A stretch of DNA of 64,000 bases from Aquipuribacter nitratireducens (GTDB lineage Bacteria > Actinomycetota > Actinomycetes > Actinomycetales > JBBAYJ01): contig NZ_JBBEOG010000003.1 in the NCBI RefSeq assembly GCF_037860835.1, positions 186,001 through 250,000 of the forward strand. Direction: 5' to 3'. Below the pieces are notes generated by a model. That model was not told the origin of the DNA and ran no database searches. It saw nothing but the letters and a program-made list of their open reading frames with translations. Below are positions 35,254 to 38,997 of the stretch, in pieces (positions within the stretch are counted from its first letter, which is position 1; each line of letters starts with the position of its first letter). The position numbers and the translations under genes were made by a program.

Positions 35254-36270
35254 ATGTCCAGCAGCCGGCCGACCACGGCCCCCCCAGCCCACCCCCTGTC
35301 CAGCGGCGCCCGCCGCGCCTCCCGCCCCCTCGTCCTCGGTGCGGCGGCGCTCCTCGCCGTCGGTGTCGCCGCGTGCGGCTCCGGCGAGGCGACCGACGAC
35401 GCGAGCGGGGCGGCGGGCGGGAACGCCGGCGGCTCCGGCGACCTGTCCGGCGTCAGCGTCGACGGAGCGTACGGCGAGGTCCCCACCGTCGAGTTCGACA
35501 CCCCCTTCGAGGTCGAGGAGTCCGCGAGCACCGTCCTCGACGAGGGCGACGGCGAGGAGCTGACGAGCGAGGACACGGTGACGCTCGACTACTGGGTGTT
35601 CTCCGGCAGCAGCGGGGAGCAGCTCGAGAGCAGCCGTGACGCCGCCCCCATCAGCCTCCCGCTCGGCGAGGGCCAGGCCGCGCCCGGCATCATCGACGCG
35701 CTCGTCGGCATCCCCGACGGCTCGCGCGTGGTGGCCGCCGTCGCCCCGCCCGAGCCGCCGGAGGGGGCCAGCGCCGACCCGAGCGCGGAGACGATCGTCT
35801 TCGTCATGGACGTCCTCGGGGTCGTGCCCGAGCGCGCCGAGGGCGAGGTCGTGGAGCCGCCCGAGGGCGTGCCGTCGGTCACGACCGACGACGCCGGCGA
35901 CGTCGAGAGCCTCGACGTCAGCGGCGTGGAGGCTCCCGAGGAGCTCGTCGTCACGACGCTGATCGAGGGCGAGGGGGAGCCGGTGGAGGCGGGCTCGACC
36001 GTCACCATCCACTACGAGGGCGTCCTCGCCTCCGACGGCACCGTGTTCGACTCCTCGTGGGACCGCGGGACCGCCGCGACGTTCCCGCTCGACAACCTCA
36101 TCCCCGCCTGGCGCGACGGCCTCGTGGGCGTGCCGGTCGGCAGCCGCGTCGTCATGCAGGTGCCGCCGGAGCAGGGCTACGGCGCCGAGGGCAGCCCACC
36201 CACGATCCCGGGTGACGCCGACCTCGTGTTCGTCGTCGACGTCCTCGCGGCCACCGCACCGCCCGCCTGA
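35254..36270 (+). CDS. FKBP-type peptidyl-prolyl isomerase lipoprotein with two FKBP-like domains
   Basis: 338 residues. A signal peptide ends in VAAC (lipidation Cys41), followed by an acidic Gly/Ser-rich linker. Residues about 110-195 resemble a degenerate FKBP unit (VTLDYWVFSGSSGEQLESS, then ALVGIPDGSRVVAAVAPP), and residues about 230-336 form a standard FKBP domain with VTIHYEGVLASDGTVFDSSWDRG, LIPAWRDGLVGVPVGSRVVMQVPPEQGYG and DLVFVVDVL. It should act outside the membrane in protein folding. TAGGCT at 35240-35245 is 8 nt before the ATG. It sits between pafA and pafBC, a common position. Confidence 0.92.
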   Translation: MSSSRPTTAPPAHPLSSGARRASRPLVLGAAALLAVGVAACGSGEATDDASGAAGGNAGGSGDLSGVSVDGAYGEVPTVEFDTPFEVEESASTVLDEGDGEELTSEDTVTLDYWVFSGSSGEQLESSRDAAPISLPLGEGQAAPGIIDALVGIPDGSRVVAAVAPPEPPEGASADPSAETIVFVMDVLGVVPERAEGEVVEPPEGVPSVTTDDAGDVESLDVSGVEAPEELVVTTLIEGEGEPVEAGSTVTIHYEGVLASDGTVFDSSWDRGTAATFPLDNLIPAWRDGLVGVPVGSRVVMQVPPEQGYGAEGSPPTIPGDADLVFVVDVLAATAPPA

Positions 36271-36292
36271 CCAGGGAGCACACGGGACGCCA

Positions 36293-36333
36293 CCCCGACC
36301 GCGCGAGGCAGTAGCCTGCCCGCGCGGTCGGGG
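36293..36333. promoter_or_regulatory. 13-bp inverted repeat enclosing the pafBC -10 box
   Basis: Perfect 13-bp arms (36293-36305 and 36321-36333) flank 15 nt that can extend the stem by AGGC/GCCT. The central loop holds TAGCCT (36312-36317), the best -10 box for pafBC, whose GTG-proximal leader of about 42 nt ends in GGGGAGGT. As RNA from the FKBP gene (stop 36270) the repeat would be a strong terminator; as DNA it could be an operator. The two uses are not exclusive. Confidence 0.7.
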
Positions 36334-36365
36334 CGCTCCCCGGCCGCGGCCCGGGGAGGTGGACG

Positions 36366-38501
36366 ATGTCGGCGCGGCGGACCGAGCGGCTCCTCAACCT
36401 CGTGATCGCGCTCCGCGCGACCCGGCGCGGCATGCGGCGCGAGGAGATCCGCGCCGCCGTCCCGCAGTACGCCGGCAGCCCCTCCGACGCCGCCTTCGAG
36501 CGGATGTTCGAGCGGGACAAGGAGGACCTCCGCGAGCTCGGGGTCCCCGTCGTGACGGTCGCGAGCGACGTCCTCGTCGACGCCGACGACGCCTACCGCA
36601 TCGACGCGCAGGCCTGGGACCTGGCGCCGGTGTCCTTCACCGCCGCCGAGGTCGCCGTCCTCGCGCTCGCGGCCCGCGTGTGGCAGCAGGCGGCGCTCGC
36701 CGCGCCCGCCGCACGCGCCCTCACGAAGCTCCGCGCCGTGGGGGCGGACGACGACCTCGCCGCCGAGAGCGCCGCCGTGCGGGCCGCGGCCGGGCTCGTG
36801 GAGGCGGGTGTCCGGGCCGTCGACCGCGCGTTCGACCCGCTCCACGCCGCCCTGCGCGCCCACCGGCGGGTGCGGTTCCGCTACCGCCGCCCCGACGGGG
36901 CCGTCGCCGCGCGGACCGTCGACCCCTGGCGGCTCCTGCTGCGGGGCGGCACCTGGTACCTCCTCGGCTTCGACCACGACCGCGCCGCCCCACGGGTGTT
37001 CCGGCTCGGGCGCATCGAGGGCGAGGTCACGACCGTCCGGGGCGGCCCACCGATCAGCCCCCCGGCGCCGGAGGTGGTCGCCGCCGCCGTCGCCGACACG
37101 GTGCACGTGCTCTCCCCGGACCCCGTCCGACCCGACGGTCCCCGGTACGAGGCGCTCGTGCGGGTGCGGCCCGGCCGGGCGGGGGGCCTACGGGCCCTCG
37201 CGGAGCGTGCCGGTGCCCCCGCCGGTCCGGACGGCCTCCTTCGGGTGCCGTGGACGGGGTGGGCGCACGAGGACGGGCCCCGGCCGCCCGGCTGGCTCGT
37301 GGAGGCCGTCGCGGCCTGCGGTGCCGACGCCACGGTCGTCGCCCCCGCGCCCCTCGCCGAGGCGGTGGCGGCGACGTGGCAGGCGGTGCTCGACCGGCAC
37401 GCCCCGGCCGCGGACACCGAGCCGGACGCCGACCGGGAGGCCGACCACGACGCCGACGACGACGCCCACGACGACGCGGACCCGGACACCCCTCACGGCG
37501 CCGCCGCCGATGCGAGCCCGACGGCCGAGGCGTCGTGGACGCCCGGCGCCACGGACCGGCTGTCCCGGCTCCTCGCGATGGTGCCGTTCGTCCTCGACCG
37601 GGACGGCATCGGCCTCGCCGAGCTCGCCGCCCACTTCGAGGTGAGCGAGCAGCAGGTCGTCCGGGACCTCCAGCTCCTCTTCGTCTGCGGCACACCCGGG
37701 CACCTGCCCGACGACCTCATCGAGGCCGACTGGGAGGGCGGGGTCGTGCGGATCGGCAACGCCGACACGCTGTCCCGCCCGCTGCGGCTGACGGGGGAGG
37801 AGGCAGTCGTGCTCCTCCTCGGGCTCCGCCTGCTCGCCGACGTGCCCGGGCCCCACGACCGCGAGGCCCTCGGGCGGGCCACGCGGACGCTGCAGCGCCT
37901 CACGGGCGACGCCGAGCCGCTGCTGGAGGTGGTGGCCGACCCGTGGGGGCCCCCGGCGCACGCGGACACCGTCGCCCGCGCGCTGCGCGAGGGCCGCCGG
38001 CTGCGGCTGCGGTACCTGTCGGCCGCCCGTGACGAGCTCACCGACCGCGAGGTCGACCCCGTCCGCGTCGTGGTCGACGGCGGGCGGCCCTACCTGCAAG
38101 CGTGGTGCTACCGCGCCGACGACGTCCGCTCGTTCCGCCTCGACCGGGTCGTCGACGCCACGGTGCTCGAGGAGCCGGTCCGTGCGCACCCCGGCGGCGA
38201 CCGCGATGGGGCGCCGTCCCGCGCGTGGGTCGCGGAGCACGGGAGGCCCGTGCGGCTGCGGCTGCGCCGCGGCGCGGAGTGGGTCGCCGAGCAGTACCCC
38301 GTCGAGGTCGTCGTCCGCCAGGGGCAGCCCCTCGTCACCGACGTCCGGCTGCAGGTCGCCGACACCGGTCGCGTGGTCCGGCTCGCCCTGCGCCTGGGCG
38401 GTGCGCTCGAGGTCCTCGCGCCGCGGAGCCTGCGCCGGGACGTCGCCGCGGCCGCCGCAGCGGCCCTCGACGCGGCCGTCACGGTCCCCGCCGGCCGCTG
38501 A
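36366..38501 (+). CDS. pafBC: Fused PafB-PafC WYL-domain transcriptional regulator
   Basis: 711 residues that contain two complete HTH-WYL proteins in one chain. The PafB-like half starts with RTERLLNLVIALRATRRGMRREEIR (winged helix) and has a WYL core around RTVDPWRLLLRGGTWYLLGFDHD. An acidic Asp/His-rich linker covers about 350-390. The PafC-like half begins at TDRLSRLLAMVPFVLDRDGIGLAELAAHF and carries WYL and C-terminal WCX regions. In mycobacteria, PafB and PafC are separate proteins that activate the RecA-independent DNA damage response; the fusion is known from other actinobacteria. ATG 36366 has GGGGAGGT upstream. Confidence 0.93.
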   Translation: MSARRTERLLNLVIALRATRRGMRREEIRAAVPQYAGSPSDAAFERMFERDKEDLRELGVPVVTVASDVLVDADDAYRIDAQAWDLAPVSFTAAEVAVLALAARVWQQAALAAPAARALTKLRAVGADDDLAAESAAVRAAAGLVEAGVRAVDRAFDPLHAALRAHRRVRFRYRRPDGAVAARTVDPWRLLLRGGTWYLLGFDHDRAAPRVFRLGRIEGEVTTVRGGPPISPPAPEVVAAAVADTVHVLSPDPVRPDGPRYEALVRVRPGRAGGLRALAERAGAPAGPDGLLRVPWTGWAHEDGPRPPGWLVEAVAACGADATVVAPAPLAEAVAATWQAVLDRHAPAADTEPDADREADHDADDDAHDDADPDTPHGAAADASPTAEASWTPGATDRLSRLLAMVPFVLDRDGIGLAELAAHFEVSEQQVVRDLQLLFVCGTPGHLPDDLIEADWEGGVVRIGNADTLSRPLRLTGEEAVVLLLGLRLLADVPGPHDREALGRATRTLQRLTGDAEPLLEVVADPWGPPAHADTVARALREGRRLRLRYLSAARDELTDREVDPVRVVVDGGRPYLQAWCYRADDVRSFRLDRVVDATVLEEPVRAHPGGDRDGAPSRAWVAEHGRPVRLRLRRGAEWVAEQYPVEVVVRQGQPLVTDVRLQVADTGRVVRLALRLGGALEVLAPRSLRRDVAAAAAAALDAAVTVPAGR

Positions 38502-38558
38502 CCCGTCCGGGCTGGGCCGTCCGGGCGACCCCCGGTCACGTCGTGCGCGCAGCCGCGT

Positions 38559-38586
38559 TCAAGTTCTCCGGCGGTCGTGCCGAACG
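38559..38586 (+). promoter_or_regulatory. Sigma-28/WhiG-like promoter candidate
   Basis: TCAA (38559) and GCCGAACG (38579) are separated by 16 nt, matching the TAAA-N16-GCCGATAA spacing of WhiG/FliA-type promoters with two or three mismatches. It lies about 55 nt before the zinc-ribbon gene, and that gene has an SD in its leader but no TANNNT box at the usual place. This is a pattern match only. Confidence 0.35.
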
Positions 38587-38640
38587 ACCTCTCACAAGAA
38601 CCCGGCGGACGACCGGGCTCGCCCGGTGAGGAGGGTGAAG

Positions 38641-38997
38641 ATGACAGTCATCAAGGCGTCGTGCCCATCGTGCGGTGACGTGGAGCTCACCCCGCGCCAG
38701 GTGCGGCTGGTCGTGTGCTCCGTGGAGGCCCGCAGCTTCTACAGCTTCTCGTGCTCGACGTGCGGGGACGAGGTCCGCAAGCACGCCGGCACCGACGTGG
38801 TCGCGCTGCTGAGCAGCGGCGGCGTCGTGCCCGAGCGGTGGGTCATCCCCGCCGAGGTGCTCGAGCCGCACGACGGCCCGGTCCTGTCCCACGACGACCT
38901 GCTCGACTTCTGCCTGTGGCTGGAGAGCGCCGACCTGCTCGCAGCCGTCGCGCAGGCGAGCCAGGGTCGCCCGTCCGGGGAGTCCGCGACCCTCTGA
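38641..38997 (+). CDS. Conserved zinc-ribbon protein of unknown function
   Basis: 118 residues. The N-terminal half carries two Cys pairs, SCPSCGD (8-11) and SCSTCGDE (37-41 region), forming a likely zinc ribbon; the C-terminal half is acidic with LSHDDLLDFCLWLESADLL. I recognise it only as a small protein often found between paf and tat genes in actinobacteria; the function is unknown. The ATG follows GAGGAGGGTGAAG. Unlike its neighbours, it has an upstream sequence resembling a FliA/WhiG-type promoter (38559-38586). Confidence 0.8.
   Translation: MTVIKASCPSCGDVELTPRQVRLVVCSVEARSFYSFSCSTCGDEVRKHAGTDVVALLSSGGVVPERWVIPAEVLEPHDGPVLSHDDLLDFCLWLESADLLAAVAQASQGRPSGESATL

Follow-up and report, generated by a model that had tools for sequence, protein, structure and literature searches.

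In a Pup-proteasome gene cluster, a 95-nt gap separates the stop codon of an FKBP-type peptidyl-prolyl isomerase gene (36268-36270) from the ATG of the DNA-damage regulator gene pafBC (36366). An inverted repeat within this gap surrounds a promoter-like TAGCCT box. Does this element end the transcripts that arrive from FKBP, start those of pafBC, serve as an operator, or combine several of these roles? An initial annotation had proposed that it may do the first two at once, or may be an operator for autoregulation.

We analysed the window, a 64,000-nt stretch of DNA from a 3.83-Mb actinobacterial assembly (G000). The cluster in the window includes dop and pafA, both of which exceed their NCBIfam cut-offs, and two ORFs between them that we took to be prcB and prcA by order only. 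The FKBP gene, whose product has an N-terminus resembling a lipoprotein signal by eye, is the last gene upstream of the inverted repeat. On the other side of pafBC, a 139-nt gap (38502-38640) precedes a 118-aa ORF (38641-38997) that has no Pfam match at E 0.001. A TatA-family gene is located farther downstream of pafBC.

A hairpin and a -10-like box in the FKBP-pafBC gap

The arms of the repeat are complementary at 13 of 13 positions and enclose a 15-nt loop, with 22 bp between the FKBP stop and the left arm. The initial annotation, which described TAGCCT in the loop of a perfect 13-bp repeat at this distance, was exact in its coordinates. Folding adds five nested pairs that cut the loop to 4 nt. 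The hairpin exceeds chance: no 13-bp stem arose when the gap was shuffled 300 times with dinucleotides preserved, and the fold of 36286-36336 (-41.4 kcal/mol, z -6.84) was equalled by none of 200 shuffles.

Features of the FKBP-pafBC region (window coordinates) and pattern sites elsewhere in the same genome
Feature	Position	Strand	Basis or remark
FKBP-type peptidyl-prolyl isomerase, 338 aa	35254..36270	+	Pfam FKBP_C 1.1e-32; stop 36268-36270
Left arm, CCCCGACCGCGCG	36293..36305	+	Inverted-repeat search; 0/300 shuffles
Loop region, TAGC flanked by five nested pairs (GGCAG/CTGCC) that lengthen the stem past 13 bp	36307..36320	+	Folding; coordinates read from sequence
TAGCCT, putative pafBC -10, inside the loop	36312..36317	+	Identical in three congeners; sense bias of the TAnnnT class
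Right arm, CGCGCGGTCGGGG	36321..36333	+	Inverted-repeat search
Second small hairpin, 8-bp GC arms (36336-36343/36351-36358), overlapping the pafBC ribosome-binding site	36336..36358	+	Inverted-repeat search
Shine-Dalgarno GGAGG of pafBC	36355..36359	+	Sequence
pafBC, 711-aa PafB-PafC fusion	36366..38501	+	Pfam WYL (two stretches), HTH_PafC, WCX (two stretches)
Exact RecA-NDp-like sites (L145-L151)	G000 C3:112148, C3:384689, C3:465309, C6:12613, C6:45883, C3:33, C14:28379		Pattern scan

The repeat is present in a single copy in the 3.83-Mb assembly, and a search with up to three mismatches returned one other place, at three mismatches. A repeat family or mobile palindrome was rejected, since the genome holds no second copy within two mismatches. 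Nothing within the window matched a known structured RNA at the Rfam gathering score.

The tail that follows the right arm (CGCTCCCC) has one T in 8 nt. We found no canonical intrinsic terminator on the + strand between 31000 and 42000, and the hairpin lacks the U-tract of that class. In sequence, the element does match a U-less (I-shaped) terminator, a class with a stable GC stem and fewer than three U among the 8 nt that follow.

The second, smaller hairpin of the gap has no equivalent by eye in the gap of G001, one of two congeners (G001 and G002) compared below. An alternative 10-bp hairpin, present in the lowest-energy structure predicted for the own-start RNA of G000, would free the ribosome-binding site. 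The ensemble unpairedness of this site is 0.17 in the own-start RNA versus 0.19 in the read-through RNA of G000, and 0.56 versus 0.34 in G001. A translational switch was rejected because the G000 values are nearly equal and the G001 change ranks sixth among the 34 gaps tested.

TAGCCT belongs to the class TAnnnT, which we surveyed in 686 kb of DNA from the three species of the genus (G000 L114-L133 plus the window, G001 L134-L142, and G002 L143-L144). Genes were called with a simple home-made codon-usage caller. Gaps of 40-250 nt were used for stems and gaps of 40-300 nt for TAnnnT and TAGCCT counts. The survey includes the pafBC gaps of G000 and G001; the G002 gap (L031), where pafBC is cut by a contig end, was excluded. 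We identified 85 sense and 7 antisense TAnnnT hexamers in 179 codirectional gaps, compared with 15.6 in shuffles. Convergent gaps have no need of a promoter; counting both strands, their 3,644 bases contain two. Judged by this distribution, the TAnnnT class behaves as a -10 element in the window's genus. TAGCCT accounts for 8 of the 176 TAnnnT hexamers in 5' flanks and is the eighth commonest. In codirectional gaps it occurs four times in sense (two of these at pafBC) versus two in antisense, which is too rare to test alone.

Among the same 176 hexamers, 69 sit 0-9 nt ahead of a start codon, which suggests that leaderless messengers are common in the genus. The box in the window ends 48 nt ahead of the pafBC ATG, so a leadered pafBC messenger with GGAGG is expected. 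From the usual -10-to-start spacing, the start site is expected at about 36324, within the right arm.

Of the codirectional gaps, 19 of 172 contained a stem of at least 10 bp, against 2.5 expected from shuffles; the count was 7 of 20 for convergent gaps (0.3 expected) and 1 of 71 for divergent ones (0.8 expected). In this genus, then, long hairpins are associated with the 3' ends of genes. No T-run occurs in the ten bases after the surveyed long hairpins, and ARAGORN detected no tRNA in the lone divergent gap with a long stem.

The position of the box in the loop is only mildly beyond chance. When one -10 is placed at random in a short gap with a hairpin, it falls within this loop in about 11% of cases. 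Across the eight codirectional gaps that contain both a stem of at least 10 bp and a TAnnnT, two loop placements were seen versus 0.47 expected, and both are the pafBC locus in two related species. The exact overlap of hairpin and -10 may be a compaction of the short gap.

The gap in congeners and other relatives

The within-genus comparison comprises three species (G000, G001 and G002), which are also the only three of the family compared. The same six bases, TAGCCT, precede pafBC in all of them. The longest stem in the G001 gap is 11 bp, with TAGCCT in the loop; it was matched by 8 of 300 shuffles, and its fold (z -2.17) had 2 of 200 shuffles as good, which places this stem only moderately beyond shuffles. 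The G002 gap has a 12-bp stem (0 of 300 shuffles; fold z -6.02). Its hairpin starts downstream of TAGCCT, whose CCT takes part in pairing at the foot of the left arm. The -10 is thus within the strongest hairpin in all three species, in G002 at the arm base, and its loop position is not conserved within the genus.

An outer CCCCG/CGGGG and an inner CGCGCG are common to the G000 and G001 arms (read by eye from two sequences). The AC/GT step of G000 becomes TCGC/GCGA in G001, so that by eye both arms changed together. The right side in G001 has a 3-nt bulge, and the MAFFT alignment does not show the arm exchange in this form. As a covariation test, the three-species arm comparison is not strong. 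The initial annotation had asked whether the arms are conserved in relatives: a stable hairpin persists in all three congeners, but the arm sequences differ. It had also held that non-conserved arms beside a conserved -10 would indicate a terminator near a promoter by chance, a description that does not quite apply because a stable hairpin survives the arm changes in each of the three species.

The expected start site falls within the hairpin in all three congeners, as we infer from the position of the box. In G000 and G001, all that the pafBC messenger would retain of the hairpin is a portion of its right arm. The own transcript of G002 would still carry a shortened hairpin, which counts against a strict rule that own transcripts are hairpin-free.

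For other relatives, a PafBC scan of genome contigs provided 75 loci. A search of 59 related genomes, the window's included, gave matches in 54 and 30 loci, and a family search added one. One locus (L107) was dropped before the counts as the same place as L001. In 32 loci, the window's own included, FKBP is the gene immediately before pafBC and lies 25-260 nt from it; these loci are not independent lineages. L096, L100 and L101 (gaps of 6, 19 and 4 nt) were dropped from this 32-gap table, as were loci with FKBP more than 260 nt away or not found.

We identified the strongest hairpin followed by a separate TAnnnT in 26 of the 32 FKBP-pafBC gaps (23 from Streptomyces, one from Mangrovactinospora and two from other genomes, L006 and L014). 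In the Streptomyces loci, 9-77 nt separate the strongest hairpin from the -10 downstream of it. TACGGT is kept in 23 of 23 Streptomyces gaps and CTTTTG in 20 of 23 (Streptomyces loci among L032-L099). The Streptomyces TACGGT (L038, L039, L040 and others) lies mostly within GCGGTACGGTC, after a hairpin. For 20 of the 26 gaps, at most 5 of 100 shuffles matched the longest perfect stem; for the other six (L006, L072, L073, L078, L080 and L099), more than 5 of 100 did. TAnnnT lies within the strongest hairpin in five of the 32 gaps, namely those of the three congeners, L055 and L097; the longest perfect stems of L055 and L097 are no better than shuffles (24 and 92 of 100). The gap of L069 contains no TAnnnT. 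Where the FKBP-pafBC gap is short, a hairpin followed by a putative promoter is its usual content, as seen mainly in Streptomyces; in the window's genus the two are merged.

Weighing the readings of the element

In the reading we consider probable, pafBC has an independent promoter, and a U-less terminator that closes the upstream unit lies across the start of it. The GC-rich hairpin without a U-tract would close the unit that ends in FKBP (probably pafA-FKBP). Polymerase arriving from FKBP would transcribe both arms, giving the complete hairpin (about -41 kcal/mol), and FKBP-side transcription would be stopped, or the RNA 3' end protected, ahead of pafBC. Polymerase starting from TAGCCT would begin inside the hairpin, so the pafBC messenger would be made without the left arm, could not form the full hairpin and would escape. 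Termination itself, the start site and the escape of the own transcript are all predictions from sequence.

Several observations support placing the FKBP transcript end and the pafBC promoter in one element, as the initial annotation did: hairpin-then-TAnnnT order in 26 of 32 gaps, retention of both components by the congeners, and the tendency of long hairpins to follow 3' ends. A dual terminator and promoter is likely, but the operator half of that proposal found no such support. The merged terminator and promoter also has evidence against it. There is no T-run and no canonical terminator; G002 has TAGCCT at the left-arm base rather than in the loop, and its own transcript keeps a shortened hairpin; the G001 stem is moderately beyond shuffles; the loop placement is mildly above random (2 versus 0.47); and six of 26 relatives' gaps have a stem matched by more than 5 of 100 shuffles. 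The mild excess of loop placements lends something to the view that hairpins arise easily in gaps of 79-86% GC and that the -10 came to lie in the loop by accident, a view also fed by the 8 of 300 shuffles that match the G001 stem. We hold chance as an account of the whole element to be highly improbable. The hairpin itself is beyond chance in G000 and G002 (0 of 300 shuffles each; z -6.84 and -6.02), although its loop may have come to hold the -10 by accident. The hairpin could also act as a 3'-exonuclease barrier or processing site on a longer FKBP-pafBC messenger, with Rho terminating elsewhere. This fits a hairpin without a U-tract, and an excerpt of PMC8269248 allows that U-less structured 3' ends may partly be Rho-dependent or processed. 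The separate -10-like box in the gap and the stem with CTTTTG (20 of 32 gaps) favour a transcription-unit border instead, and we regard a barrier or processing site as unlikely.

A DNA operator would have a dimeric regulator, PafBC or another, bind the arms across the -10 and repress or activate pafBC. For PafBC itself, we take the RecA-NDp consensus to be a TTGTCRGTG-like box 8 nt ahead of TAnnnT. Upstream of recA, all three congeners carry TGTCGGRG, 8 nt and TAnnnT, agreeing with 7 of 9 letters of the consensus; a LexA-like box was seen by eye near this site. At pafBC, G000 and G001 each match 4 of 9 letters and G002 fewer than three, so pafBC does not show a PafBC-dependent (RecA-NDp) promoter. 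The exact RecA-NDp-like pattern has seven sites in G000 versus none in the reversed control, and none of the seven is in the window. These sites are candidate PafBC targets that include recA and a uvrB-like ORF, the latter named by eye from its translation. Two of them (C3:33 and C14:28379) are identical over 22 bases and precede an identical short reading frame, which may reflect a repeat located at contig ends. Allowing up to two mismatches gives no more sites than chance would (34 versus 34.45), and the nearest lies at 36202-36223 within FKBP on the opposite strand. Autoregulation of PafBC through RecA-NDp is not supported by the upstream DNA of pafBC and recA in the three congeners or by the scan of the window's own genome.

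A dyad symmetric about a -10 is a classic repressor layout, and TAGCCT with the adjoining CGCGCG core is common to the G000 and G001 arms. Against this, arm sequence and length vary among the congeners, and the dyad is shifted relative to the -10 in G002; conserved half-sites at a fixed spacing are absent among G000, G001 and G002. Arms that differ while the hairpin persists are more in keeping with a structure formed in RNA than with a fixed binding site for a protein. The RecA-NDp motif is found at recA in all three congeners yet is absent at pafBC, which makes it unlikely that the repeat contains an operator for PafBC. The partial text of PMC6789036 adds that mycobacterial PafBC levels are reported unchanged under DNA stress and calls the RecA-NDp motif non-palindromic. 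We consider a DNA operator very unlikely, and the autoregulation suggested by the initial annotation is not borne out.

The merged terminator and promoter might additionally couple the two units, with polymerase released at the FKBP hairpin reinitiating on the pafBC -10. Post-termination reinitiation on a nearby promoter has been described in single-molecule work on Escherichia coli intrinsic termination, according to an excerpt of PMC6978380. We see little chance that such coupling operates here; if it did, the DNA-damage regulator would be dosed by pupylation-gene transcription without read-through. In a bolder form of the same idea, cruciform extrusion of the palindrome would melt the -10 in the loop and make pafBC supercoiling-sensitive.

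Relation to known systems

Terminator-promoter overlaps have already been described, and by its sequence the FKBP-pafBC element would be a further case. Part of PMC7055797 describes inter-operon terminator-promoter overlaps for tufB-secE and neighbours in Salmonella, and says that interrupting the one at tufB-secE lowers fitness. As at tufB-secE in that description, terminator and promoter of the window would share DNA, the -10 (36312-36317) lying within the hairpin (36293-36333), a likeness drawn from sequence only. Unlike tufB-secE as described there, the window has its -10 inside a U-less hairpin, between FKBP and pafBC, in an actinobacterium (a different phylum).

The available portion of PMC8269248 counts 353 U-less structured 3' ends versus 182 U-rich ones in Streptomyces clavuligerus, and its authors liken the former to I-shaped terminators or Rho-dependent ends. 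The window hairpin resembles these U-less (I-shaped, HS-U-lack) terminators in its very stable GC stem past a gene 3' end. It differs from the mapped examples in that portion of PMC8269248 in being predicted from sequence and in its 15-nt loop. The 23 Streptomyces loci share the window's gene order, with a hairpin after FKBP and TAnnnT before pafBC. Unlike the window, most Streptomyces stems are followed by a T-run, and the -10 is separate and downstream.

In Mycobacterium smegmatis, pafA, pafB and pafC are co-transcribed, as stated in part of PMC5656591. The window's pafBC is likewise downstream of pafA. Unlike the M. smegmatis arrangement in that account, FKBP, the hairpin and a promoter-like box lie between pafA and pafBC. 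Among the open-licence papers listed, titles and abstract openings yielded no terminator between FKBP and pafBC.

The element suggests that in the window's genus and, by gap structure, in the Streptomyces relatives, pafBC forms a separate transcription unit. The locus may offer a small natural example of a single hairpin that could stop read-through without affecting the transcript initiated within it.
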